IMG/VR virus record: IMGVR_UViG_3300033388_002352
Location: 1 to 29,054 of that record
Length of the DNA stretch: 29,054 nt
Source of the DNA: a virus
Direction: 5' to 3' (one strand)
The position numbers were made by a program, and so were the translations under genes. Below the pieces are notes generated by a model. It worked only from the letters and a program-made list of their open reading frames with translations, was not told where the DNA came from and made no database searches. The number at the start of each line of letters is the position of its first letter. Position 1 is the stretch's first letter. Shown one piece after another: positions 212-24,475 of this stretch.

Positions 212-396
212 GCCCTTCCCCTTTGCACTTTAAATATAACCCACAGCAAACTATACCGCCCCGGATATATAGGTCGGTTCAGAAAATACCACTGCACACC
301 TGCGCCGCCTCCGATCTCCCATAGCTCCCACGTCCAAAATAGAAAGCGCCTGAATTCTTTTGTTGCGCTACAGAGTATTGCTGTTTTGTCAGTCAT
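208..396 (-). CDS. Small hypothetical protein (62 aa)
   Basis: The start at 396 (MTDKTAIL) is preferred over the longer open frame reaching 513, because AAGGG sits 7 nt upstream of 396 and the extra N-terminus would lie wholly inside the methyltransferase gene. With this start the gene overlaps the methyltransferase end by 8 bp and the next gene by 4 bp, matching the spacing of its neighbours. The product is rich in Trp and aromatic residues (WTWELWEIGGG) and basic at the C-terminus, with no clear membrane helix. I recognise no family. It is probably a small phage early protein, and could be a chance frame, though it fills an otherwise empty 180 bp. Confidence 0.5.
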   Translation of the reverse strand: MTDKTAILCSATKEFRRFLFWTWELWEIGGGAGVQWYFLNRPIYPGRYSLLWVIFKVQRGRA

Positions 397-1042
397 AAAC
401 CAACCCTTGTATCTCATCGCTCCCAAATAAATCACCCTGCGAAATATGCCGTTTAAATCTCGCCTCTTGCGCTTCAAAATAATCCTTGTCGAGCTCGCAA
501 CCCTCAAGGTCAAAGCCTAAATCGTGGCAGGCTATGCGGATTGAACCGCTGCCGATGTGGGAATCGAAAATTGACTGTCCGGGTTTTCCGTAGTTTTTTA
601 GGAGCCATTTGTAGAGGGCTACGGGTTTCTGGCAAGGATTTATCTTTCCCTTATAATCTCCATTAGCAAGTGGGTCGTGTTTAAATATCCTTACATTCTC
701 ATTAAAACTTGTCCATGCAAGTTCAGCCTCGGCATATGTCCGGTTTTTAAACCCCTCACCTTTATCCCATATCAAAAAGCATCTTGTCGGTGGGAGTAAA
801 AAATAATTACCGCCCCATATTATTTGATTCTGTGTAATCCTTGATAGTTCCGCAAAATATAACTCGTCAGGAATTGACTTGTCCCAATTCTTAATGTCAT
901 GTTTACGCTTTTCTCCCTTTTTCCTTCCCATGTTCATGTTTATGTCAATCCCATAAGGCGGATCACAAATTCCTAAATCGTAATACTTATCAGGAACCGT
1001 TTTCATAAACTCTTGGCAGTCAATCAGGTGTATCCTATTCAT
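389..1042 (-). CDS. DNA N6-adenine (or N4-cytosine) methyltransferase, beta type
   Basis: The 217-aa product is an S-adenosylmethionine-dependent DNA methyltransferase that modifies an amino group in duplex DNA. The catalytic motif IV, DPPYGI, is at residues 27-32. The AdoMet-binding motif I, FDSHIGSGS, is near residues 159-167, followed by GCELDKDYF. The order IV, then a variable recognition region, then I is that of the beta class. The start at 1042 is chosen because GGAGG lies 10 nt upstream; upstream extension would run through the HNH gene. It overlaps that gene by 8 bp. No specificity subunit is seen. In phages such enzymes usually protect phage DNA from host restriction or alter regulation. 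The recognition sequence cannot be predicted. Confidence 0.9.
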   Translation of the reverse strand: MNRIHLIDCQEFMKTVPDKYYDLGICDPPYGIDINMNMGRKKGEKRKHDIKNWDKSIPDELYFAELSRITQNQIIWGGNYFLLPPTRCFLIWDKGEGFKNRTYAEAELAWTSFNENVRIFKHDPLANGDYKGKINPCQKPVALYKWLLKNYGKPGQSIFDSHIGSGSIRIACHDLGFDLEGCELDKDYFEAQEARFKRHISQGDLFGSDEIQGLVYD

Positions 1043-1328
1043 TCGCCAACATCCTCCGCACATACCGAGCATGTTCAGCCTCGTGTGATCTGCCGCAAGC
1101 AAGCGAGGCATTGCAACTGATCGAGCAGGCAGACTTTAAATTGTATTCAGAATGGATTATGTGTTTTCCGTATTTCTTCAGGTTCGCTTTTGACTTGCTC
1201 ACGATATGAGCCAATTGACTTGACCCGTATAGCCTAATGCTTACACCGCAAGCCTGACAGGTGTAATTATCCCGTTCAAATATCGCCTCCCGTTTTTCGG
1301 TTGCTTCAAACTTTTCTTTGTCTGTCAT
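1035..1328 (-). CDS. HNH endonuclease-like protein
   Basis: This 97-aa protein has the pattern of an HNH nuclease with a four-cysteine zinc site: CQAC at residues 24-27, the catalytic-type His in LAHI (41), Asn 63 in the following helix region, and C68 with C72 (CSISCN). The length suits a stand-alone HNH domain. AGGAG lies 8 nt ahead of the ATG. It sits immediately upstream of, and overlaps, the DNA methyltransferase gene, so both should be made from one transcript. It could be a nicking or cleaving enzyme for phage DNA, part of a restriction-like pair, or a structural zinc protein that has lost activity. The fold assignment is fairly sure, the role is not. Confidence 0.75.
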   Translation of the reverse strand: MTDKEKFEATEKREAIFERDNYTCQACGVSIRLYGSSQLAHIVSKSKANLKKYGKHIIHSEYNLKSACSISCNASLACGRSHEAEHARYVRRMLANE

Positions 1329-2119: not shown

Positions 2120-2371
2120 TTAGAATAATTCATCCTGTTTTGATTCTGAGATAGGTATCTCAAGTTCTTTTGTAAACTCTCTGAACATCTCACAAGTTCC
2201 ATCGTTCTTTACAAGGTCATTTAAAATATTTGTTGCTACGCTGTTTCCACATGCCTCATAGTTGTAGTTCATTTGAACGCACGCAATCGGGCAAGGCTCT
2301 TCACCAAAGATGCATTGTTCACATTGTTCAGCAAAACACATGCCTTCTGATCCGTTTGAAAAATATGCCAT
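2120..2371 (-). CDS. Cysteine-rich small protein (83 aa), first gene of the leftward operon
   Basis: Seven cysteines fall in the first 60 residues (C12, C17, C20, C27, C31, C41, C60). The spacing CxxxxCxxC followed by CPIAC resembles a metal-binding or disulfide-rich module, but no known zinc-finger or ferredoxin pattern fits exactly. There is no signal peptide, so a cytoplasmic metal site is more likely than disulfides. AAGGAG lies 6 nt before the ATG. It is the first gene after a strong minus-strand promoter (TTGACT, 17 bp, TACAAT) and so should be expressed early. Function unknown. Confidence 0.7.
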   Translation of the reverse strand: MAYFSNGSEGMCFAEQCEQCIFGEEPCPIACVQMNYNYEACGNSVATNILNDLVKNDGTCEMFREFTKELEIPISESKQDELF

Positions 2372-2392
2372 AAAAACTCCTTTTTATTTTAC

Positions 2393-2428
2393 TTGCTTTA
2401 TTGTATGTTGTATGGTAGGATAAGTCAA
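2393..2428. promoter_or_regulatory. Overlapping divergent promoters with a shared operator-like motif
   Basis: On the minus strand, TTGACT (2428-2423), a 17-bp spacer and TACAAT (2405-2400) form a near-consensus sigma70-type promoter for the leftward operon. On the plus strand, TTGCTT (2393-2398), 17 bp and TAGGAT (2416-2421) form a weaker promoter for the recombination operon. The two footprints overlap almost completely, so RNA polymerase could occupy only one at a time. The motif ACCATACAA lies inside both, at 2416-2408 on the minus strand, and recurs at 4730, 5156 and 5254. A repressor bound there would block both directions. Confidence 0.6.
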
Positions 2429-2450
2429 GAATTATTTTTAAGGAGTGAAT

Positions 2451-3194
2451 ATGAAGATTGAAATTGAAGATGACAAGCAGATTGAATTAGTTGACGAACA
2501 AAAAGATGTTGTGCCGGTTGCTGCAGGTGCCGACCTTGTAGCTATCGCCCTCGGTAGCGGTGTAACCGATGTCGAAACACTGAAAGCCCTGATTGAAATG
2601 AAAAACGGTGAAGAGGACCGGAAAGCCAAAAGGGAATTTGATTTACACTTTGCTGAGATGCAGGCGGAGTTTACACCGATAAAACGGAACAAAAAAAGTG
2701 ACAAAGGAATGTACGCCCCTGTCGATGAATTGCAGAAACAGTACAACCCTATTATTACAAAGCACGGCTTTTCTTATACATGGGATGAACTTGAAAAAGA
2801 GGGAGGCGCACTTGACATCGTGCTGACTATTTCAGGATACGGCCATTCAAAAACAAATCACAAACTGCTTCCTGAATATATCCCGGACAAAGGCGGACAA
2901 TCAGGAAAGCCTATTATGAACGTGCTGCAGGCAGAGGGAACCCGGACAACATACGGACAGCGGTATACGTTTAAAAATGGGTTCGGGATTACTGAGTCTG
3001 ATACTGATACAGATGGCGGCATGTCATATGAGGACGGAGTGGAATACAGCACAGACATTCAGGCAATACGCACCGTAATACCGGAACAGCTACCGGAACT
3101 TTTTACAATGCTCTGGAAAAAACATGCTACTGACAAAGTAGCACGGGAAATTATGGGCAGAGAGAAAGACAAGCGGAAAAAGGAATTGAAATGA
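2451..3194 (+). CDS. erf: ERF-family single-strand annealing protein
   Basis: The 247-aa product matches the ERF superfamily of phage recombinases, which anneal complementary single strands and serve phage DNA recombination and repair. The family signature is visible in the middle: FAEMQAEFTPIKRN, then MYAPVDELQKQYNPIITKHG, FSYTW, and RTTYGQRYTFKNGFGI near residues 165-180. The C-terminal 60 residues are charged and basic (KDKRKKELK). The start is ATG at 2451 with AAGGAG 5 nt upstream; the GTG at 2445 lies within that ribosome site. It overlaps the exonuclease gene by ATGA, and exonuclease plus annealing protein is the classic two-component recombination pair. Confidence 0.9.
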   Translation: MKIEIEDDKQIELVDEQKDVVPVAAGADLVAIALGSGVTDVETLKALIEMKNGEEDRKAKREFDLHFAEMQAEFTPIKRNKKSDKGMYAPVDELQKQYNPIITKHGFSYTWDELEKEGGALDIVLTISGYGHSKTNHKLLPEYIPDKGGQSGKPIMNVLQAEGTRTTYGQRYTFKNGFGITESDTDTDGGMSYEDGVEYSTDIQAIRTVIPEQLPELFTMLWKKHATDKVAREIMGREKDKRKKELK

Positions 3195-3814
3195 TTATCA
3201 GGGATATTGAACAAGGGTCAAGCGAGTGGCTGCAGCTCCGTGTAAGCTGCGTTACTTCTTCCCAACTGTGGCGGATAATGCCGGGCAAAAGAGGCTATCT
3301 AAAAGAGCGTGAAAATTATATGGCAGAACTTGCATGTGAAAAGATCACAGGCTTACCGTATGAGCATTTTGTTACCGCTGACATGGAGCGTGGCTCTGAT
3401 CTTGAGTTTTTAGCACGTTCCGCATACGAAGCAAAAACAGGGATTATGGTTGAAGAAATCTGCATAGCTGAACATGATTCAATTCAAAACTTCAAGGGAT
3501 CTCCTGACGGCCTGATAACTGACGGAATAATTGAAATAAAAATGCCGAAAACTGCAAACCACTTTAAGACAATTACAACAGGCAATATTGATATGAAATA
3601 TATATATCAAATGCAGGGAAATATGATGTGCTGTAATGCCAAGGTTGCCGAGTTCATTTCATTTGATGACAGGGTTCCTGAACATTTACAATTGTTCATT
3701 GCCCGGGTTGACTATGATCCACAAATGGCATTAAACATTGATTCTGAAATCGAGAAATTCACCGCTGAATTGACAGCGATGATCGGGAAGTTAAATGAAA
3801 AGTGTTCCGATTAG
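3191..3814 (+). CDS. YqaJ/lambda-type alkaline exonuclease (PD-(D/E)XK)
   Basis: This 207-aa protein has the YqaJ viral recombinase layout: RDIEQGSSEWLQLR at the N-terminus, TSSQL near 22-26, ERGSDLE near 66-72, then GSPDG with D106, IEIKMPK with E115 and K117, and YIYQMQGNMM. Together D106, E115 and K117 form the metal-binding catalytic core of lambda-exonuclease-like enzymes, which resect one strand of duplex ends 5' to 3'. The length is usual for the family. Its start overlaps the ERF stop, so the two are probably co-translated and act together: resection followed by annealing. Confidence 0.92.
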   Translation: MIIRDIEQGSSEWLQLRVSCVTSSQLWRIMPGKRGYLKERENYMAELACEKITGLPYEHFVTADMERGSDLEFLARSAYEAKTGIMVEEICIAEHDSIQNFKGSPDGLITDGIIEIKMPKTANHFKTITTGNIDMKYIYQMQGNMMCCNAKVAEFISFDDRVPEHLQLFIARVDYDPQMALNIDSEIEKFTAELTAMIGKLNEKCSD

Positions 3815-4283
3815 AGGTACAGTAACAACAGGCACCCTGACTCTATATGGGGATGGGTGCCTCCATGTTTTATTCAGCGGCAGGTTTAAGGATCTGATCA
3901 TCGACGAGCTTACACAGCGAGGCATAAGCCCAAATTGTGCGCTTGAAATTACGGTTGATAAAGTGAACTCAAGCAAAACCGTAAAACAGAACAGCACATT
4001 CCATTTGCTGTGGGGTATCTATTGGAAATCCGGCCTTGCTTCTGACGTGTCAAAAACTGTTATGCGCAACCGGCTTAAATATGAATACGGTGTAACAGAA
4101 TACTTTGAAGCGAAAGACGGCACTGTTATAGCCACGCTGAAAAGCGTATCTGATTACACGCTGACAGAAGGTAGGCAGTTGATCTCCGGCACGATTGAGG
4201 AAATGCTTGTAATCGGTGTTAATGATCAGCGGTTCCAGGATATGGTCAAAGATTGGAATGAATATAAAAAGGAGTGGAAATGA
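3795..4283 (+). CDS. Unassigned recombination-operon protein, possibly NinB-like
   Basis: The 162-aa product overlaps the exonuclease end by 20 bp and ends in ATGA with the next small gene. After a beta-rich N-terminus (RGTVTTGTLTLYGDGCLHV) it has KQNSTFHLLWGIYW near residues 65-78, then a helical half ending KDWNEYKKEW. The QN.xFH.L pattern, the size and the position after ERF and exonuclease recall NinB-type recombination accessory proteins, but the match is weak. A single-stranded DNA-binding or junction-binding role would suit the operon; this is inference. Confidence 0.7.
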   Translation: MKSVPIRGTVTTGTLTLYGDGCLHVLFSGRFKDLIIDELTQRGISPNCALEITVDKVNSSKTVKQNSTFHLLWGIYWKSGLASDVSKTVMRNRLKYEYGVTEYFEAKDGTVIATLKSVSDYTLTEGRQLISGTIEEMLVIGVNDQRFQDMVKDWNEYKKEWK

Positions 4284-4384
4284 TAATTACATTAGCAAAG
4301 ATAACAGCCGGGATTATAGCAGGCGGCCTAGTAGTTGTGTTCTTCATGGCCTTCATAGATTATTGGTATAACCGAAAGTGTTAA
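4280..4384 (+). CDS. Single-pass membrane peptide (34 aa)
   Basis: A short gene with a strong AAGGAG 6 nt upstream, starting in the ATGA overlap with the preceding stop. It encodes a peptide of which residues 9-27 (TAGIIAGGLVVVFFMAFID) form a glycine-containing membrane helix, followed by YWYNRKC. Its last 32 bp overlap, tail to tail, the end of the convergent VRR-NUC gene. It is the last gene of the recombination operon. Its function is unknown; small membrane peptides made early by phages can act in superinfection exclusion or host inhibition, but no evidence here decides that. Confidence 0.6.
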   Translation: MIITLAKITAGIIAGGLVVVFFMAFIDYWYNRKC

Positions 4385-4706
4385 CGACCGCAGAAATGCC
4401 GGTATAATTCTTGATAGCTTTCTGCACATCTTCAACACTGCTGCACACTACAACACACTGGCCGCAATTGAAAAGATAGTCAAACATTTTTTTCTGTGAT
4501 TCGGATAGCTTTTCATCAGCCCGTTTTACCTCAATCCACATAATTAGATTCTTCCCAATCACAAGCAAGTCGGGCGTTCCCTTCTCACATAGGTGCATCC
4601 GCCCACCTCCGGCAGACTTGACAATGCCTGAGTTCATTCGGAAAACCTTGCACTTAATCAGTTCCAAATACGTGATAATGTCACGTTGAATTTCACTTTC
4701 GAGCAT
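4353..4706 (-). CDS. VRR-NUC domain nuclease
   Basis: The 117-aa protein is a compact PD-(D/E)XK nuclease of the VRR-NUC type. Visible elements in order are E5 in the first helix (ESEIQRDIITYL), RMNSG at 23-27, GTPD with D46, WIEVKR with E59 and K61, and LSESQ with Q71. These are the metal and scissile-phosphate contacts of the fold, and the length is typical of stand-alone phage VRR-NUC proteins, which act as structure-specific or Holliday-junction-type nucleases. GGGAGG precedes the ATG. It is transcribed against the recombination operon, and an ACCATACAA motif lies 24-32 bp upstream of its start. Confidence 0.9.
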   Translation of the reverse strand: MLESEIQRDIITYLELIKCKVFRMNSGIVKSAGGGRMHLCEKGTPDLLVIGKNLIMWIEVKRADEKLSESQKKMFDYLFNCGQCVVVCSSVEDVQKAIKNYTGISAVVNTFGYTNNL

Positions 4707-4729
4707 TTACATCCCTCCCGTATAACGGC

Positions 4730-4738
4730 ACCATACAA
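4730..4738 (+). promoter_or_regulatory. ACCATACAA operator-like motif upstream of the VRR-NUC gene
   Basis: Exact 9-mer copy of the motif found at 2416-2408 (minus strand) and 5254-5262 (plus strand). It lies just upstream of the VRR-NUC start, where a promoter would be expected, although no convincing -35/-10 pair is visible here. A nearby imperfect palindrome, ACCAC and GTGGT at 4766-4784, may be related. The call rests on repetition and position. Confidence 0.4.
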
Positions 4739-4803
4739 TCTAATGCCACTGTTTTGCATATTCATACCACCCATATATAGTGGTGTCTTAAATAGCCCTC
4801 ACG

Positions 4804-4858
4804 CACGCCCGTAACTCTATACGCTGTAACGAGTTACATCCTGCGGCGTGTTACGCTG
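4804..4858. repeat. Nested palindromes and iteron-like repeats in the 4707-4926 intergenic block
   Basis: This non-coding stretch is densely structured. CACGCC (4804-4809) pairs with GGCGTG (4845-4850). GTAACTC (4811-4817) pairs with GAGTTAC (4831-4837). TGTAACGAGTTACA (4825-4838) is a perfect 14-bp palindrome, apart from its GA centre. The hexamer TACGCT occurs at 4820, 4852 and 4876, and inverted at 4888-4893. Such repeats suit an initiator- or regulator-binding site or a replication origin; the flanking nuclease and RHH genes fit either. No coding frame with a ribosome site is present here. Confidence 0.5.
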
Positions 4859-4864
4859 CACACA

Positions 4865-4908
4865 AACACCTCGGGTACGCTATATGTAGCGTAGGAAGGG
4901 TGTTTTTT
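4865..4908 (+). terminator. Rho-independent terminator-like hairpin
   Basis: The inner stem TACGCTA (4876-4882) and TAGCGTA (4887-4893) encloses TATG. The outer arms AACACC (4865-4870) and GGTGTT (4899-4904) extend it across a mismatched segment, and six T follow (4903-4908). On the plus strand it could stop read-through from the recombination operon. On the minus strand it lies just after the RHH gene and could end that transcript, though its U-run is poorer. It shares its inner stem with the TACGCT repeats. Confidence 0.55.
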
Positions 4909-4926
4909 GTGGTGAAAAACCCACGA

Positions 4927-5160
4927 CTATTCCAGCCATTCACCTACATCCATGCCCTGCTCAGCAAGGCGGCCTATCAATGCAAGCCGGACAAACTCGG
5001 TAATTGTCCCACCCCTATAGGCGCACTCGGAGTCTTGTTTCGCCATGAGTTTTACAGCCTCTTTTAACCTCGGCTCCAGTAATGCGCTAACGTGCGCAAG
5101 TTCACTCTGTCTCTTTATCCATCTTGTATATGCGTTTTCTTCCATACAGTATGATACCAT
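4927..5160 (-). CDS. Ribbon-helix-helix (CopG/Arc-type) DNA-binding regulator
   Basis: The 77-aa product fits the ribbon-helix-helix fold: a short strand (HVSALLEP, residues 24-31), helix 1 (RLKEAVKLMAKQ), a longer loop with SECAYRGG, and helix 2 (TITEFVRLALIGRLAEQG). Such proteins bind DNA as dimers, inserting the paired strands into the major groove of short repeats. The start at 5160 has only a weak AAGG 10 nt upstream; MEENAY at 5145 is an alternative. Half-sites CATAC, GTATG and CATAC (5143-5162) overlap its start codon, suggesting autoregulation. The same ACCATACA word lies in the promoters at 2393-2428 and 5249-5277. Confidence 0.7.
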   Translation of the reverse strand: MVSYCMEENAYTRWIKRQSELAHVSALLEPRLKEAVKLMAKQDSECAYRGGTITEFVRLALIGRLAEQGMDVGEWLE

Positions 5161-5163
5161 ACA
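5143..5163. promoter_or_regulatory. CATAC/GTATG half-site cluster at the RHH gene start
   Basis: Three alternating half-sites, CATAC (5143-5147), GTATG (5149-5153) and CATAC (5158-5162), span the first codons of the RHH gene, and ACCATACA is at 5156-5163. Closely spaced half-sites are typical RHH operators. A further inverted repeat, ACTAC and GTAGT (5181-5201), lies just upstream near a possible minus-strand -10 (TATACA). Overlap of the operator with the coding start is consistent with autorepression. Confidence 0.45.
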
Positions 5164-5248
5164 TTTTCAGCCTTGTAAACACTACATATTTGTATAGTAG
5201 TTATTTTTAAAAAAAGTGCGAATTCGGGGAAATAACTACAACATTTTC

Positions 5249-5277
5249 TTGCTACCATACAATATCCGTGGTACACT
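5249..5277 (+). promoter_or_regulatory. Promoter with operator-like motif for the small-gene operon
   Basis: TTGCTA (5249-5254), a 17-bp spacer and TACACT (5272-5277) form a plausible promoter 31 bp ahead of the 5309 start. ACCATACAA (5254-5262) begins at the end of the -35 box, and TACCA (5253-5257) pairs with TGGTA (5269-5273) as an inverted repeat across the promoter. The layout mirrors 2393-2428, where the same motif overlaps the promoter core. Confidence 0.5.
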
Positions 5278-5308
5278 GATATTAGGTTAAAGATAAGGAG
5301 TTTACAGG

Positions 5309-5638
5309 ATGACTAAATTAAACGGAACAGAAAAACAGATTGAATGGGCTAATGCTATTAGAGATACTATGTTAAACGGATATAAAAAACAGGGATATAC
5401 AGTGCAAGAGGGGATTGCTCAATTATTAAGCAGGGCTGAAAATGATTTGAATGATTACAGAGAATATGCAAAAGACCCAACCGAAAAAATCACTGATGAA
5501 GAAATATCATCCCGTGAAACCAGGGTTTTGGTTGTTACTGAATTAAAATCAGAGATTGAAAACAATGATTCAGCAGCATGGTTTATTGACCATAAAGCAC
5601 CAATGTTTTTGACTAACGAAATCAATAAAAGGAGTTAA
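5309..5638 (+). CDS. Hypothetical protein, EKQIEWA family (109 aa)
   Basis: AAGGAG is 8 nt before the ATG. The N-terminus LNGTEKQIEWANAIRD and the C-terminal AAWFIDHK resemble a widespread bacterial and phage family of small proteins with a TEKQIxWAxxIR start and an ASWWIDNR-type end, for which I know no function. The protein is helical and charged. It is the first gene of the rightward small-gene operon, directly after the promoter with the ACCATACAA motif, so it is likely made early and under the same control as the recombination genes. Confidence 0.75.
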   Translation: MTKLNGTEKQIEWANAIRDTMLNGYKKQGYTVQEGIAQLLSRAENDLNDYREYAKDPTEKITDEEISSRETRVLVVTELKSEIENNDSAAWFIDHKAPMFLTNEINKRS

Positions 5639-5641
5639 CAA

Positions 5642-5839
5642 ATGAAATACATTATTGGATTAGGAACATGTAACGGTGAAGAAGAACAATTTTCAGCATG
5701 GATGCAGAACAGAGAGCCGAAGCTTGACATTGAAATCAAGAATACAAATTTAACTGGTCTGTTTGACGAAAACAACAACAGCGTTGATGAGGGTGAATAT
5801 TTCGGATACTACCCATGGGATAAATACTGTAACAGATAA
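5642..5839 (+). CDS. Hypothetical acidic protein (65 aa)
   Basis: Starts 3 bp after the upstream stop with AAGGAG in place. It is an acidic, Asn-rich soluble protein (NNNSVDEGEYFGYYPWDKYC). The pattern GTCNGEEEQF followed by an acidic body is not one I recognise. It is a member of the rightward operon of small early-type genes. A DNA-mimic or inhibitor role is possible for such proteins, but nothing decides it. Confidence 0.65.
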   Translation: MKYIIGLGTCNGEEEQFSAWMQNREPKLDIEIKNTNLTGLFDENNNSVDEGEYFGYYPWDKYCNR

Positions 5840-6543: not shown

Positions 6544-6749
6544 ATATTAACATATTAGACATGACGCAGACTGATGTACACACCGCAAACGCCGGGAAAA
6601 TTTACTCGTTCCCTTCTGGAATGACTATACGGTTTTCTAATATGAAAGAGCATGAATTTCAACTATGGAATGAAATTATAGTGGCGTACTTAGAACAAGA
6701 ACTATCAGAGATAAAAGAGAAAGAGGATGCGCTATATGAAAAAAATTAG
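6540..6749 (+). CDS. Hypothetical protein (69 aa)
   Basis: It starts in an ATGA overlap with the previous stop, with AGGAAGGGG nearby. The N-terminal half is beta-like (NAGKIYSFPSGMTIRF) and the C-terminal half is a charged helix (LEQELSEIKEKEDALYEKN) likely to form a coiled coil. It overlaps the next gene, a possible RHH protein, by 14 bp. Function unknown. Confidence 0.65.
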   Translation: MNINILDMTQTDVHTANAGKIYSFPSGMTIRFSNMKEHEFQLWNEIIVAYLEQELSEIKEKEDALYEKN

Positions 6750-6915
6750 ATTCAGCGTAACTGATGATCAGTTCAGGATAATCCAGTTTGAAGCACAGGC
6801 GAAAGGATTAAAACATTCAGCATTTGCAAAGATGACAGTTTTCAACTATATAGCAAAATACCCCTGTAAGGGATTATTAAAAGATTTCCAGGCATGGATT
6901 GAATCGAACAAGTAG
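6736..6915 (+). CDS. Second ribbon-helix-helix-like small protein (59 aa)
   Basis: ATG at 6736 is preferred to 6727 because AGAGG is 9 nt upstream of it. The N-terminus has the RHH plan: strand KKIRFSVTDDQ, helix FRIIQFEAQAKG, turn with LKHSA, and helix FAKMTVFNYIAKYP. This is the same fold predicted for the 4927 gene, though the sequences are not close. It could be a transcription regulator for the operon or a partner of the other RHH protein. The C-terminal tail (LLKDFQAWIESNK) is a further helix. Confidence 0.55.
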   Translation: MKKIRFSVTDDQFRIIQFEAQAKGLKHSAFAKMTVFNYIAKYPCKGLLKDFQAWIESNK

Positions 6916-8194: not shown

Positions 8195-8376
8195 TATTCA
8201 GTTTCCTTTTTTCCGAACTTGGAAAGGATAGCCTCCGCAACATTACCGCCGATAAAGATACCGGTTAATACAAGCCAATGGATAGCGTCAAGCTTGTCAG
8301 TGAAAATAAATATTGCAGTCCCTATTGTGTAGGCTAGAAACTTACGACTGCTGATTCTGGATAGAAAACTTTTCAT
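8194..8376 (-). CDS. Holin-like two-helix membrane protein (60 aa)
   Basis: The start at ATG 8376 is chosen over GTG 8379 because AAGGGG is then 5 nt upstream, with a TGATG junction to the previous stop. Two hydrophobic helices are visible (FLAYTIGTAIFIF and IHWLVLTGIFIGG), separated by a short DKLD turn, with a basic N-terminus and charged C-terminus. Size, topology and the place between an XhlA-like protein and an endolysin fit a small class II holin that opens the inner membrane for the endolysin. Confidence 0.7.
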   Translation of the reverse strand: MKSFLSRISSRKFLAYTIGTAIFIFTDKLDAIHWLVLTGIFIGGNVAEAILSKFGKKETE

Positions 8377-8699
8377 CACAGCCCCTTTGATATAAAATAT
8401 GTTGTGACGAAAACAAGCACGGCAGTTATCACGCCGGTAATAATATTTTGCTTAACACCGCTTGATTGCTTGATGGTATCATTCAATACCTTAACCTGAT
8501 TCTCAAGTGTTGTTACCCGTGGATAGATTGCCCGGAAGTCGTCACGGAATTCTGAATCCTTATTTTCAAGATTACATACTCGCCTGTCTACACTCTCAAA
8601 ATCTTTTTGAAACAATTCTTTAAGCCCGACGATTTCTGTCCGGATGGTATCAATCAACGCCGTGATAAAACTTTTGTCTTGCTCTGTCATGTGTTCCAT
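8376..8699 (-). CDS. XhlA-like coiled-coil membrane protein (107 aa)
   Basis: The protein is an N-terminal amphipathic helix and coiled coil (VDRRVCNLENKDSEF, RVTTLENQVKVLNDTIKQ) followed by one C-terminal membrane helix (NIITGVITAVLVFVTTYFI, residues about 85-103). This is the plan of XhlA (hemolysin) family proteins, which assist holins in Bacillus and other phages. It is the first gene of the lysis cassette, downstream of its own promoter. ATG at 8699 is used; ATG at 8690 is an alternative that fits GAGGA equally well. A hairpin can cover the upstream GAGG. Confidence 0.7.
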   Translation of the reverse strand: MEHMTEQDKSFITALIDTIRTEIVGLKELFQKDFESVDRRVCNLENKDSEFRDDFRAIYPRVTTLENQVKVLNDTIKQSSGVKQNIITGVITAVLVFVTTYFISKGL

Positions 8700-8704
8700 T
8701 CCTC

Positions 8705-8736
8705 ACACCTCGCTAATAATACTATACAAGCGGTGT
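8705..8736 (-). promoter_or_regulatory. Leader hairpin that can sequester the lysis ribosome site
   Basis: In the mRNA, ACACCGC (8736-8730) can pair with GCGAGGTGT (8713-8705) with one bulged A and a 16-nt loop. The 3' arm contains GAGGTG, the likely Shine-Dalgarno sequence of the XhlA-like gene. An alternative hairpin, ATACAA with TTGTAT, shares part of the loop. This could delay lysis translation. Confidence 0.4.
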
Positions 8737-8743
8737 TTTGTAT

Positions 8744-8771
8744 ATTATACACTACTATTCACCGTTGTCAT
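8744..8771 (-). promoter_or_regulatory. Lysis cassette promoter
   Basis: ATGACA (8771-8766), a 16-bp spacer and a consensus TATAAT (8749-8744) lie on the minus strand between the membrane-HTH gene and the XhlA-like gene. Five of six bases match at -35 and all six at -10. The cassette can therefore be expressed separately from the tail genes upstream. Confidence 0.55.
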
Positions 8772-8809: not shown

Positions 8810-9469
8810 TCATTGGCTTTCACTCGCTGAGTATAACTTTAGTTTTAGATTATCTTTGTATAATGATATTAATTGGTATGTGGTTTTAGCTTTGTATTCT
8901 TTTCTCATTCGTTGCAATTGTTTATTAACCTGGTTGTGGCTGATGCGTAACTCATACGCTATTTCTTTCGGCAGTTTCCCACGCATAAGCTTTTCCATGA
9001 CCTCAACATCTTCAATCTTTCTGACTACCTGAAGCTTAACCTTTTTCTTATCAAGAATGGTAAAGAATATAACCGCTGTTATGATATACCCAACGCCCAA
9101 AGTAATGACCGTTGAAATATCCATATCAATCAAGATGCCTTTTACAAGCACCTCGCACAAGGTAATGATGTAAATAATTATTTTTAAATCAGGATTAACA
9201 ATTAGCTGTACGGCAAAGCACATATACACCACGCCGCCAACATCGCCGAACCCATTCAAGAAAGTCATGATAGCGCTTAGTAATAGAAAGATAATTATCA
9301 AGGGTGTTTTCCATCTGTTGAATACCAGGAAAATTCCGATAGCTGCAAACGGGATAATGTTTGTAACCCAAAATATATCAGCCCGGCTTTCAAGACATAG
9401 CTTTACAATGTTAAATAATGATAGAGCAAAACAACTTGTGTATCCAACCCGGTTTAATTGTTCCACCAT
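8810..9469 (-). CDS. Multi-pass membrane protein with C-terminal LuxR/HTH-like DNA-binding domain
   Basis: The 219-aa protein has about five or six hydrophobic segments (residues about 10-26, 32-50, 56-72, 78-92, 95-114, 120-139), then a cytoplasmic basic linker (DKKKVKLQVVRK) and a helix-turn-helix region at 152-205: VMEKLMRGKLPKEIAYELRI, then SHNQVNKQLQRMRKEY. This resembles the LuxR/sigma-4 type HTH used by response regulators. No known ligand domain is seen. GAGGT precedes the start by 9 nt, and it overlaps the previous gene by 16 bp. It lies directly upstream of the lysis promoter, so membrane state or a signal might control lysis or late transcription. Function is inferred. Confidence 0.75.
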   Translation of the reverse strand: MVEQLNRVGYTSCFALSLFNIVKLCLESRADIFWVTNIIPFAAIGIFLVFNRWKTPLIIIFLLLSAIMTFLNGFGDVGGVVYMCFAVQLIVNPDLKIIIYIITLCEVLVKGILIDMDISTVITLGVGYIITAVIFFTILDKKKVKLQVVRKIEDVEVMEKLMRGKLPKEIAYELRISHNQVNKQLQRMRKEYKAKTTYQLISLYKDNLKLKLYSASESQ

Positions 9470-9753
9470 GTAGATGATACCTCGGCATCAATATATTCTG
9501 CCTTGATTTCTGATTCAAGTTCTTTCTGTTCAGCCGTGGTGTCTTCACCGTGGGCTTGTTCCCGATGTATCGCACAAAGTAAAGCGCCGTACTTGATGAC
9601 CTGTTCCGTTGCCGCCTTGACTCCTGCTGATGCTCGATCTTCATTGTCAACGAAGTAATCAGCGTTCAAATACTCAGCCTCTTCCTGTTCTCTGTCAATG
9701 ACAATCTGTAATTCTTTCTGAAAAATACTTGCCATCTTTTCTGATAAGTTCAT
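9454..9753 (-). CDS. Hypothetical helical acidic protein (99 aa)
   Basis: AAGGAG precedes the ATG. The protein is acidic and mostly helical (KMASIFQKELQIVIDREQEE, AEQKELESEIKAEY) with no membrane segment. It follows the fibre-type protein gene with 1 bp between and precedes the membrane-HTH gene. It might be a fibre chaperone or small virion component by position, but no family is recognised. Confidence 0.65.
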   Translation of the reverse strand: MNLSEKMASIFQKELQIVIDREQEEAEYLNADYFVDNEDRASAGVKAATEQVIKYGALLCAIHREQAHGEDTTAEQKELESEIKAEYIDAEVSSTWWNN

Positions 9754-9754
9754 C

Positions 9755-10258
9755 TTATCTCCTTTTAGTAACTACTTTCAAATAGCCTGCTGTTTTTGGG
9801 TCTACCCCTCCGGCAGTTGTCAACAACATTAAACCTGTTGCGCCTGTTTGCAGCGTGAAACTGTTAGTATCAATGTTTTTAAGTTCTATGCCATATGTTT
9901 CCGGTGTAGCGGAAAAGTAAAAGGATACATTCATATCAGTTATATCCCGTGCATCTGTATCTGCCCCTGTTGCTGAAAAGTAAACTGTCGCTTCTAACCC
10001 TGTTATGTTGTATCCAAGGTTGTGTGTAATAGTTGCAGTAACATTTTTTAACGCATTTGCTCCTGAATAATCAAGCCATGCAGACACGAAAGGGACAGGA
10101 TTCATGTATGCCAAATCATTCCACGCAGTTGTCCCGTCTCCAATTTTCCATAGACTTGTATCGGTTTCAAATGCCGGTTCACCTGCAAGCAAAGTGTCAT
10201 TTGCACTTGTGAAATCCCCTGCTGTATCTCGTTTCCATTGCTGTCTGTATAGTGCCAT
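9755..10258 (-). CDS. Tail fibre/receptor-binding-type protein with Mtd-like N-terminal repeat
   Basis: The open frame extends to 10369, but GGAGG 6 nt ahead of ATG 10258 and the stop of the upstream gene at 10260 fix the start. The 167-aa product begins with the motif common in phage tail fibres and major-tropism-determinant N-termini: QWKRDTAGDFTSANDTLLAG, EPAFETDTSLWKIGDGTTAW. The C-terminal half is beta-rich (residues 70-160) with Thr and Ala. It is probably a short receptor-binding or fibre-tip protein attached to the tail hub encoded just upstream. Confidence 0.75.
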   Translation of the reverse strand: MALYRQQWKRDTAGDFTSANDTLLAGEPAFETDTSLWKIGDGTTAWNDLAYMNPVPFVSAWLDYSGANALKNVTATITHNLGYNITGLEATVYFSATGADTDARDITDMNVSFYFSATPETYGIELKNIDTNSFTLQTGATGLMLLTTAGGVDPKTAGYLKVVTKRR

Positions 10259-10259
10259 T

Positions 10260-12143
10260 CTATCCTCCGTAATCCACAATCGCCGCCGTGGTGCTGTTGA
10301 AATCAAATATGTCTGTCGTGCTGTCTCCGTTGAAATCATGCACATAGGTAAAATCGGTAAGCACTTCAAACGCCCTTAACACAAGGCGCAATCTTCCATT
10401 CCTAATGTCCGGGATTGATTCCAACACCTCACACTTTAATTTCCCTAACCATGATGTCCCGTTTGTGTGATCAAGTTCAATCTGCACATTCTGCCCAATC
10501 TCAGGCTCTATGAACTCAAGCCGAACCGTCCCGGTTATTATATCACGTACTGCGTCAGATTTATTCATTATGTCCTGTGCAAATAATAATGCATCAGCAC
10601 TGTCTGTGTATAGCGTTTCGAATTCTTTGCTTCTGTTGGTGTCATACGTCCCCTTAACCGCAGCCTCTTTGCTGTCGTCAATCTCTCGGAGCCATAGCCC
10701 TGATGAAACATCTTGATCATATTTTACGCCAGCTTTTGAAATAACCTGATCAGCGTCATTGTCAAGCCGTGGGTCGTCAAGCCAATCATCGGTTTTTATT
10801 GTGGCTATTGGCAGGTTGTCAGCGTCAAATGTTCTCCATGTTAACAGCCCGTCAGGCTGTCTCAAAAATCCTGCTGCGCTTGTCTGCGCCAATTCTTCAA
10901 GTACTGAAATAACCGTTGTCGTCCCGTCTATAATTGCAACCCCGATGTTGTCGCTTGCTTTTGTCTGTTCAATTGTCCACTCGGCAGTATTAAAATTATT
11001 ACCCGTGTATGAAATGCTGGCAAAGTTTTCTAAAAGATGTTGCGCAATATCAAGTTGATTATCTATCAATACGGCGGAGCCGTCCACTATGCCGCCTCCG
11101 GTGTATGTGACTTCTTGCCCGGGGTCATAATCTGCAACCGCTAAAGCAAATAATCCAGTACTCCCGTCCGGCGCAGTGCTTGGCGTAACCGCAGCCCCAT
11201 CTACTTTTATCACAGCACCGGATACATAATAATCATATACTGAAGCGTCAGCAAATAGAAAAGCGTAGGTACTCGGTGAGCCTGTCTGCTCTTCCTGCAG
11301 GCTGATACATTTTACACCTGTTACCATTCCATAAAGAATTGGCGCAGGGGTAGACAATGCGTAATCATCAGCATCTGTATATACGGTTCCATCTATATAG
11401 TTGTTTGCGATTGTATTAGACAGAGCCTTTCTTGAATCCCGGATACTTAACGCCCATGTTCCGCTGCTCTGAAACGCTGATTTTATTACACGCCCTTCAT
11501 ATATCTTTTCAAAATATTCAAACGCTAAATCTTTTGTGCCTAAATAATAGTCTGCCGTACTGCCGAATAAGTTAGACCCCTTTCTATCATCATATGAATA
11601 ATCTGAGTTGTCGATATTCTGAACAAAACTATCAAACTGCATCTGCTGAAAAAAGATGGGGTCTTTCCGCTGTGGAAATTGTGGAGTGTTTTCTAAATCA
11701 GGTGAATAGTTTACCCCGTTTACATAATCATAATATTTGTTATCTGACAATCCAAGTACAGCCCCGATATTGATATCATAAATCAGCGGCGGATTATACA
11801 GGGCATCAAATCTCGCATAGATAATATCATTCACATCATCATATATAAAACTTGCGGCTGTTGCTAACGCTGTCGCTCTGCCGTCAATTGTATTTGTGTA
11901 GCTTGTAACCTCGGTTAAATCAGTCCCGTCTACAGTTACGGAATTAACAGATACTACCGGCAATGTCGGGGCGCCGTCTGTCAGATCTGTGTCAAAGTCA
12001 GAATAAGTCCCGCGCAAATCATACATCCAAATACCGGCAGAATCCACAAGCCAAAATGTTTGAGTTTGCCGTATGCCTACTTGTAAAGCTATTACAGGGT
12101 GTTGAGTTTTTAATGCTGTTAGCAGGGTGCTATTAAATGCCAT
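10260..12143 (-). CDS. Tail hub/tip structural protein with C-terminal EF-hand-like loop
   Basis: The 627-aa protein lies between the distal-tail genes and the fibre gene, the place of a siphovirus tail hub. It begins MAFNSTLLTALKTQHPVIAL and has a beta-rich body, with GFLRQPDGLLTWRTFD near residue 430 and a region ending EPEIGQNVQIEL, which resembles hub domains of phage baseplate proteins. The last 25 residues contain DFNGDSTTDIFD (603-614), a complete D-x-N-x-D-x-T-x-D-x-x-D calcium loop like half a dockerin. AGGA precedes the start. The structural role is likely; the exact family is not assigned. Confidence 0.7.
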   Translation of the reverse strand: MAFNSTLLTALKTQHPVIALQVGIRQTQTFWLVDSAGIWMYDLRGTYSDFDTDLTDGAPTLPVVSVNSVTVDGTDLTEVTSYTNTIDGRATALATAASFIYDDVNDIIYARFDALYNPPLIYDINIGAVLGLSDNKYYDYVNGVNYSPDLENTPQFPQRKDPIFFQQMQFDSFVQNIDNSDYSYDDRKGSNLFGSTADYYLGTKDLAFEYFEKIYEGRVIKSAFQSSGTWALSIRDSRKALSNTIANNYIDGTVYTDADDYALSTPAPILYGMVTGVKCISLQEEQTGSPSTYAFLFADASVYDYYVSGAVIKVDGAAVTPSTAPDGSTGLFALAVADYDPGQEVTYTGGGIVDGSAVLIDNQLDIAQHLLENFASISYTGNNFNTAEWTIEQTKASDNIGVAIIDGTTTVISVLEELAQTSAAGFLRQPDGLLTWRTFDADNLPIATIKTDDWLDDPRLDNDADQVISKAGVKYDQDVSSGLWLREIDDSKEAAVKGTYDTNRSKEFETLYTDSADALLFAQDIMNKSDAVRDIITGTVRLEFIEPEIGQNVQIELDHTNGTSWLGKLKCEVLESIPDIRNGRLRLVLRAFEVLTDFTYVHDFNGDSTTDIFDFNSTTAAIVDYGG

Positions 12144-22722: not shown

Positions 22723-23679
22723 TTAGCTTGTTGCCAATCCGGTAATTGTTCCGTGATATTCTTCGGGACCATAATCAAGCCCGATCTGTGAATAATAAAA
22801 TCCGCCCTTTTGTGCTGCAGTCAATCCGGTTGGAACCCATAATACATCACCGCCGAATTCAGTATCAGTTACAAACTGTTCGCCGTCAAACATAACAGGA
22901 ACAAATACAGGTCGGCAGTATGAAAGGTCAGCAATAAGCAGTTCATCTGTTTCCATCTGAGGAGCATATACAATGCCCATTGTTGCGAAATCTGTTTCAA
23001 TTGTTGCAATGTTTGCGCCGCCGTAATTTCTGTCAGGTGGTACATATTCATAAGCGTCTGTTATTTTCTGTTTGTTCCACGCATTTACAAAAATAACCGG
23101 CATGTCAAATACTGAACCATTTGTGGCCATGTCCCGTAGCAGTTCATCAATCAAGGCCTTGCCTAATGTTGCGCCCCCGGCTGCTACAGTGTTTGTGGTT
23201 ACTGCATTAACAATTCCCCTTGTAGCGACGTCTGTCCCTACGGCTGATTCTGCAACATAGGTTCCATTAAAAAATGAATACTCTGTATCAATTGCCATCT
23301 GCCGCAAGGCTCCCATTTTCTGAAAAGAAAGCTCATTGGTTACCGGCTGGCCTGCCTGAGTGTTGATTCCTGAAATTGTTCCATATGTGGATTGTTTTTT
23401 GAAGGTGACCGCAGCATCATATTTCATGATCTGGCATACATTTGTATCTTGCGCTCTAGTGTAGGTTGTCGGTGTTCCTGCTGCTGCCGATGTAGTCTCA
23501 GACTGCACATTCTGACTCGCAGCATCTAAACTATAAGGCTGTGCAAGCGGGAATGTAAATGCGGTTGATCTAACTCCGCCACTCAGGCCGCCGATTGTGT
23601 TTAAGAATGGAGTCTGATTCGCTCCGATTAGAAAAAGCTCGCCCCTATAATTTAGAGCATCGCTGTTAGTTGTTGCCAT
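22723..23679 (-). CDS. Major capsid protein (HK97 fold, DUF5309/SU10-like)
   Basis: The 318-aa protein has the pattern of the DUF5309/SU10-type capsid group: GELFLIGANQTPFLNTIGGL near residues 13-32, IDTEYSFFNGTYV near 130-142, LIDELLRDMATNGSVFDMPV near 175-195, and a C-terminal LIADLSYCRPVFVPV. These subunits assemble the icosahedral shell. It follows the scaffold gene, and GGGAGG 6 nt before the ATG sits in the arm of a hairpin. No N-terminal pro-domain is evident, so the separate scaffold protein should guide assembly. Confidence 0.85.
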   Translation of the reverse strand: MATTNSDALNYRGELFLIGANQTPFLNTIGGLSGGVRSTAFTFPLAQPYSLDAASQNVQSETTSAAAGTPTTYTRAQDTNVCQIMKYDAAVTFKKQSTYGTISGINTQAGQPVTNELSFQKMGALRQMAIDTEYSFFNGTYVAESAVGTDVATRGIVNAVTTNTVAAGGATLGKALIDELLRDMATNGSVFDMPVIFVNAWNKQKITDAYEYVPPDRNYGGANIATIETDFATMGIVYAPQMETDELLIADLSYCRPVFVPVMFDGEQFVTDTEFGGDVLWVPTGLTAAQKGGFYYSQIGLDYGPEEYHGTITGLATS

Positions 23680-23684
23680 AAAAT

Positions 23685-23712
23685 GGCCTCCCTATCAATT
23701 GTATAGGCGGCC
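23685..23712 (-). promoter_or_regulatory. Hairpin in the scaffold-capsid gap covering the capsid ribosome site
   Basis: In the mRNA, GGCC (23712-23709) and CCTAT (23707-23703) pair with ATAGG (23695-23691) and GGCC (23688-23685), with a small internal bulge and a 7-nt loop. The 3' arm includes the GGGAGG of the capsid gene. With no U-run it is not a terminator. It may protect the 5' end of a processed capsid mRNA or modulate translation. Confidence 0.4.
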
Positions 23713-23723
23713 AAATTGCCACC

Positions 23724-24389
23724 CTATTTATTTTCTAAAGCTGCTTGCTTTGCCAATTGCTCTTTTAACATAAAAGCCTTTGACCCTTCACCAGCTTTAA
23801 TTGCTTCGTCATACTGCGTTTGTAAATCTGCAGCAGTTTCCCTTGTTCCTCTGTCCGGGACATTCGGCGCAAACCGTGTTTTAATTTCTGCCTCAAGCTC
23901 CGTTTTCAGCTTGCTATCAAAATACCCCTTTTCCTCTTCAAGCATTTTGAGCGCATTGTCACCGTAGATATATAGCGTCTCAGCTCTCAGTGGATCATAT
24001 CCAATTTCTTTTGCCTTGGCTCTCAGGGATTCTTTCAACTGGTTTTCTCCAGTTGTTAAAAGCTGGTCCTGTTGCCACTCTTCAAGCTCTGCAATCCGTT
24101 TCTGTTCAGGTGTTAAATCCGGGTTTAATTCTTTTTCAAGTTTCCCCCGTTCTGCCTTCAGAATTTCCGGCAACTTTTCAGCCTGGAACTTTTCGTCGTG
24201 CTTTAAAACACGGCGGCTTGTTTCAGCATCTAACGCAGATTTAAAAACAGAATTTCTGTCTATAAATGCCAGTGCTGATTCAGCGGTTGTAATGTTCTTT
24301 AGAGGGTCAAGGTCTTTTACAAGCTCCTCGGCCTCCGCTACATTAGCACCCTCTTTTACGTTTGCTTTGATCCATTCAATAATGTCCAA
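23724..24389 (-). CDS. Capsid scaffolding protein
   Basis: The 221-aa product is almost entirely helical and highly charged (RVLKHDEKFQAEKLPEILKA, PEQKRIAELEEWQQDQ), with a C-terminal helix (LKEQLAKQAALENK). This composition, and the place directly before the capsid gene, identify a scaffold of the DUF4355-like group that is removed before DNA packaging. The start is TTG at 24389 with GGGGAG 7 nt upstream. It is the first gene after the promoter/operator at 24446-24475. Confidence 0.8.
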   Translation of the reverse strand: MDIIEWIKANVKEGANVAEAEELVKDLDPLKNITTAESALAFIDRNSVFKSALDAETSRRVLKHDEKFQAEKLPEILKAERGKLEKELNPDLTPEQKRIAELEEWQQDQLLTTGENQLKESLRAKAKEIGYDPLRAETLYIYGDNALKMLEEEKGYFDSKLKTELEAEIKTRFAPNVPDRGTRETAADLQTQYDEAIKAGEGSKAFMLKEQLAKQAALENK

Positions 24390-24444
24390 TGTATTTCTCC
24401 CCGGTCACGCTCTGCCCGACCACGATAATATAAATGTCTTTCTA

Positions 24445-24475
24445 TAGTGTATACACACTATATAGTGTTTGTCAA
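24445..24475 (-). promoter_or_regulatory. Consensus promoter with overlapping palindromic operator before the head genes
   Basis: On the minus strand TTGACA (24475-24470) is a perfect -35; TATACA (24453-24448, 16-bp spacer) or TACACT (24451-24446, 18-bp spacer) serves as -10. Across it lie three half-sites: TAGTGT (24445-24450), ACACTA (24455-24460) and TAGTGT (24463-24468). These give the 14-bp perfect palindrome ACACTATATAGTGT and a second inverted repeat with a 4-bp gap. The -35 overlaps the stop codon of the MuF gene. This looks like a regulated promoter for scaffold, capsid and tail genes. Confidence 0.65.

Follow-up and report, generated by a model that had tools for sequence, protein, structure and literature searches.

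Organisation of the locus

The window analysed here – a virus record taken at its full length of 29,054 bases – carries a gene cluster in which a plus-strand recombination operon, headed by a gene for an ERF-family single-strand annealing protein and followed by one for a YqaJ-family exonuclease, diverges from a minus-strand operon with a DNA methyltransferase at its far end (Table 1). Beyond the recombination genes lie two minus-strand genes, one for a VRR-NUC protein and one for a protein of 77 residues. A run of small plus-strand genes, which includes that for a 62-residue protein, starts after the last of four copies of a short word, ACCATACA, that recurs in the control regions of the cluster at what we call sites A to D.

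The non-coding DNA between the VRR-NUC and 77-aa genes (4740-4926) contains several inverted repeats, three TACGCT repeats and a T-run. It folds better than most of its shuffles (z -2.06, plus strand), and an Rfam search that included it returned no match.

Table 1. Genes, recurrent sites and predicted promoters of the cluster, in window coordinates
Feature	Position	Strand	Remarks
N6/N4 DNA methyltransferase	389..1111	-	far end of minus-strand operon
Predicted ERF/YqaJ operon promoter	2393..2421	+	TTGCTT-17-TAGGAT, TG-extended; weak consensus match (7/12)
Predicted methyltransferase-side operon promoter	2400..2428	-	TTGACT-17-TACAAT
Site A	2401..2416	-	ACCATACAA, then a second CATACAA head-to-tail; between divergent operons
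ACCATACA, copy at site A	2409..2416	-	
ERF-family single-strand annealing protein	2451..3194	+	first gene of recombination operon
YqaJ-family exonuclease	3191..3814	+	
VRR-NUC protein	4353..4706	-	
Site B (ACCATACA copy)	4730..4737	+	ACCATACA(A), 24-31 bases upstream of VRR-NUC ATG (4706, -)
77-aa candidate repressor gene	4927..5160	-	coding signal; RHH by pattern only; no homologue found
Site C	5142..5164	+	CCATACA-N8-CCATACA with GTATG between; over 77-aa gene start
Predicted 77-aa gene promoter	5151..5179	-	TTTACA-17-TATCAT, TG-extended; site C adjoins -10
ACCATACA, copy at site C	5156..5163	+	
Alternative upstream promoter, 77-aa gene (predicted)	5194..5222	-	TTCGCA-17-TACTAT, 8/12; message would include ATG 5160
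Predicted small-gene operon promoter	5249..5277	+	TTGCTA-17-TACACT, TG-extended
Site D	5250..5266	+	TGCTACCATACAATATC
ACCATACA, copy at site D	5254..5261	+	
62-aa protein	6727..6915	+	NikA-like match of RHH type, weak; alternative candidate binder

A recurring word and the promoters predicted around it

The window contains four exact copies of ACCATACA, against two for a reversed-pattern control. An earlier note on this DNA had located three of these copies as we find them and the first one base away (at 2415-2408 instead of 2416-2409). It had also held that all of them lie in non-coding or start-codon DNA, which the gene map confirms for four of four: three sites are wholly intergenic, and the fourth, in site C, spans the ATG (5158-5160) of the 77-aa gene. 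With the count now run over the full record, the word cannot be called frequent in coding regions, since no copy falls inside a gene away from its start. Two further details hold as well, namely the extension to ACCATACAA in three of the four copies – the first of these at 2416-2408 – and the presence of CATAC/GTATG half-sites over the start of the 77-aa gene, found at 5143, 5149 and 5158. A sister word, CTATACAA, is present in three intergenic regions (5190-5197, 8722-8729 and 23699-23706).

Resemblance between the sites reaches beyond the word itself. Sites C and D share a 17-nt repeat (82% identical), B and C an 18-nt repeat (78% identical), and A and D an 11-mer, CTACCATACAA. Contiguous heptads of the kind found in omega-type operators are confined to site A, where an exact pair, CATACAA-CATACAA, occupies 2401-2407 and 2408-2414 on the minus strand; B, C and D have single or spaced copies.

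The better set comprises sites A, C and D (words beginning at 2409, 5156 and 5254), each between the -35 and -10 elements of predicted promoters, so that an overlap with predicted promoter cores, originally claimed for two copies, is supported at three. Site A lies inside both of the divergent predicted promoters: its GTATGG adjoins the predicted -10 on the ERF/YqaJ side, and on the methyltransferase side it falls in the predicted spacer and overlaps the -10. Site D is situated in the spacer of the predicted small-gene promoter, adjoining its -35. Site B is the weakest of the four: the promoter scan detected no good promoter there, and the site ranked only ninth when left out in a leave-one-out scan. 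Across 2200-5700 that promoter scan found 12 promoters compared with 9.1 (sd 2.5) in shuffles, and because this overall count is close to the shuffle expectation we treat the promoters predicted at the sites as no more than plausible.

It is fairly unlikely that the word is mostly host core promoter sequence with no repressor involved. GTATGG would in that case be the TG-extended part beside the -10 at A and C, and TACAAT within CATACAAT the minus-strand -10 at A – a reading favoured by the three predicted promoters that are TG-extended, with TGG before the -10, and by the frequency of ATACAA in intergenic DNA generally, which holds 8 of its 42 copies in 3.9% of the bases. However, the word lies away from the -10 at B and D (at D it adjoins, on the opposite strand, a -35), the 17-nt repeat of C and D exceeds promoter elements, as does the heptad pair of site A, and the predicted minus-strand promoters at 8771-8744 and 24475-24446 lack ACCATACA.

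A candidate regulator between the sites

Codon usage in the 77-aa frame (4927-5160) resembles that of the other genes, so a coding signal is present: only 0.2% of the windows in false frames reach its score, and 21% of those in true frames have scores no higher than it. By position, between the control regions of two sites and with one of them over its own start, this gene is the most likely candidate for the regulator. The layout is that of autoregulation, as operator-like site C covers both the ATG of the gene and its predicted -10, and site D lies a further ~95 bases upstream. The best promoter predicted for the gene would, however, place the start of transcription near 5144, downstream of the listed ATG at 5160; the gene may therefore begin at the ATG at 5145, with hardly any leader, or else its message may come from the weaker alternative promoter upstream.

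The earlier note had named the product a ribbon-helix-helix (RHH) protein, and its sequence can indeed be read by eye as one strand (AHVSALLE) and two helices, matching that naming. The assignment found no support among known families and PDB sequences, although the protein may still have an RHH fold: no family was matched in Pfam, PHROGs or NCBIfam (the limits for Pfam and NCBIfam reaching E 10), and a search of PDB sequences gave no RHH chain and no credible chain of any kind, only three unrelated ones at E 0.78-0.87. A single-sequence AlphaFold2 model, no alignment being possible, is all-helical without a strand (pTM 0.40), and Foldseek returned no match to it; such a model is a poor test, as the model of the 62-aa protein, of low confidence, illustrates.

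That 62-aa protein is one of several conceivable readers – along with a phage protein that went unrecognised or a factor of the host – should the operator be real and its binder not the 77-aa product, which we consider unlikely. Its NikA-like match (E 0.0086, below the cut-off) is a hint of RHH type that no other scanned protein gave, the 77-aa protein included, and its gene belongs to the small-gene run that begins after site D. Yet that match is sub-threshold and the fold model poor (pLDDT 54.4), and it is the 77-aa gene that shows the usual autoregulation layout, with one site over its start and another upstream.

Relatives of the phage and of its genes

Searches with the 77-aa protein in viral_contigs and genome_contigs yielded no relative, and tblastn against phages and plasmids gave E values of 0.6 to 5 among the matches listed, none of which was accepted as a relative. 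The Pseudomonas phage stretch behind one such match was dropped, as it offered only a partly overlapping hypothetical gene and no Pfam match.

Searches with the ERF and YqaJ proteins led to one distant virus record (L005; YqaJ 41% and ERF 34% identity). The same ERF-YqaJ pair is found there at 9204-10666. A search of that whole record returned nothing matching the 77-aa protein, and ACCATACA occurs in it once, at chance level. Terminase searches brought up many relatives, with identities of at most 49%, and none in genome_contigs. A set of 34 related-phage records – 32 of the 80 terminase loci, on contigs of ~13 kb and up, together with L005 and L007 – contained no match to the 77-aa protein (0/34) and a single one to YqaJ, in L005 itself. 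At the nucleotide level, a 17-base pattern from site D had no match in viral_contigs, nor did megablast of window positions 1-25000 match any entry in phages.

Recurrence compared with chance

Dinucleotide shuffles of the whole window contain on average 0.94 copies of ACCATACA, and at least four in 2 of 100. As the word had been picked after being seen, a further comparison allowed for any word: among 1000 shuffles of the intergenic DNA (1142 bases in 13 regions), 25 had some 9-mer in at least three regions and 32 some 8-mer with at least four copies. The real words that pass these two marks are Shine-Dalgarno words and ACCATACA(A). When genes were called automatically, no 9-mer other than ACCATACAA, apart from Shine-Dalgarno and simple ones, was present in at least three intergenic runs of the window; of 26 related-phage loci, 7 yield a word by the same 9-mer rule, mostly an A/T-rich one (loci below 14 kb did not enter this set, nor did L008, L088 and L089 or L001-L004, which are copies of the window itself).

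The flanks of the four sites agree at 32 of 84 comparisons, against a mean of 21.8 at random intergenic positions (P=0.0216), a test independent of the choice of core word; the leave-one-out motif scans are partly circular, since the core word was chosen as identical. Given the shuffle, flank and related-loci results, the excess of ACCATACA over chance is a real signal, albeit one of modest size. Chance recurrence in A/T-rich intergenic DNA, which the shuffles that do equally well and the shared words of the seven related loci might suggest, is quite improbable, as those shared words are mostly A/T-rich, the flanks here agree beyond the word and every copy falls within a single gene cluster, on its few control regions.

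A possible autoregulatory circuit

The best reading of the layout is that it works like those of known autoregulating small repressors. Arc of phage P22 is a small phage RHH repressor acting at phage promoters; the 77-aa protein differs in that its sequence matched none of the RHH chains of the PDB, a difference that extends to the first of the systems below.

Omega (ParB of pSM19035) is an RHH repressor and partition protein that binds unspaced, non-palindromic 7-bp repeats at a number of promoters, among them its own (PMC9499535). Site A, with its two unspaced heptads, is similar, whereas the omega sites consist of 7-10 repeats of WATCACW and those of the window of at most two, of CATACAA; nor is a ParA partner seen in the phage. 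F55 of the Sulfolobus virus SSV1 is a small RHH repressor acting on short tandem repeats at early promoters and at its own (PMC5569661). It shares with the case described here a small viral protein, a candidate site at that protein's own promoter and short repeats, but SSV1 is an archaeal virus, the repeat is different and no sequence relation was found. MobC of plasmid RA3 is an RHH autorepressor that controls its own promoter from an operator placed between -35 and -10 (PMC4175270), much as the sites here lie within predicted promoters. It differs in its length of 176 aa, its palindromic operator and its auxiliary role in conjugation.

We tentatively favour, with a chance somewhat short of even, a small autoregulatory phage repressor – most likely the 77-aa product – that binds the word and keeps polymerase off four units. 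The repeated word would form the core of an operator, roughly TGCTACCATACAATATC, to be read by this small phage-coded protein, and dimers bound between -35 and -10 would occlude RNA polymerase. The units so repressed would be the ERF/YqaJ and methyltransferase-side operons, the VRR-NUC gene (the weakest case) and the small-gene operon along with the gene for the repressor itself. We infer that the 77-aa protein is an RHH protein, that it binds and represses, and that the genes are early ones. The regulon under one repressor put forward in the earlier note is thus upheld in one part, the shared operator-like element at four transcription units, to which shuffles, flanks and the 9-mer rule lend modest support, and not in another, the RHH identity, for which no library gave a match.

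A bolder version, in which a DNA-binding orphan from a new family, lacking any detectable homologue, regulates itself and uses non-palindromic ACCATACAA boxes within the spacers of promoters to coordinate the units for recombination, methylation, nuclease and small genes, appears rather doubtful. If the favoured reading of a small autoregulatory repressor is true, recombination and DNA-methylation genes would be tied to a single switch, and a phage lineage for which no close sequenced relative was found would gain a regulator and an operator open to test. Small repressors that regulate themselves in this way are already well known, and as a means of controlling phage genes the circuit would be an ordinary one.

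Other dyads and palindromes in the window

Elsewhere in the window, 8719-8748 holds an 11-nt inverted repeat (91%, arms 8 nt apart) with the core TATACAA-N8-TTGTATA, an operator-like dyad that overlaps the minus-strand promoter predicted before the gene at 8376-8699 (ATGACA-16-TATAAT, 8771-8744). Around CAATTG, at 23684-23713, there is an overlapping palindrome (18-nt arms, 72%) before the gene at 22723-23679. A perfect 8-nt dyad, TATAGTGT-N4-ACACTATA, with a further overlapping copy, occupies 24443-24468, within the spacer of the minus-strand promoter predicted before the gene at 23724-24389 (TTGACA-18-TACACT, 24475-24446).
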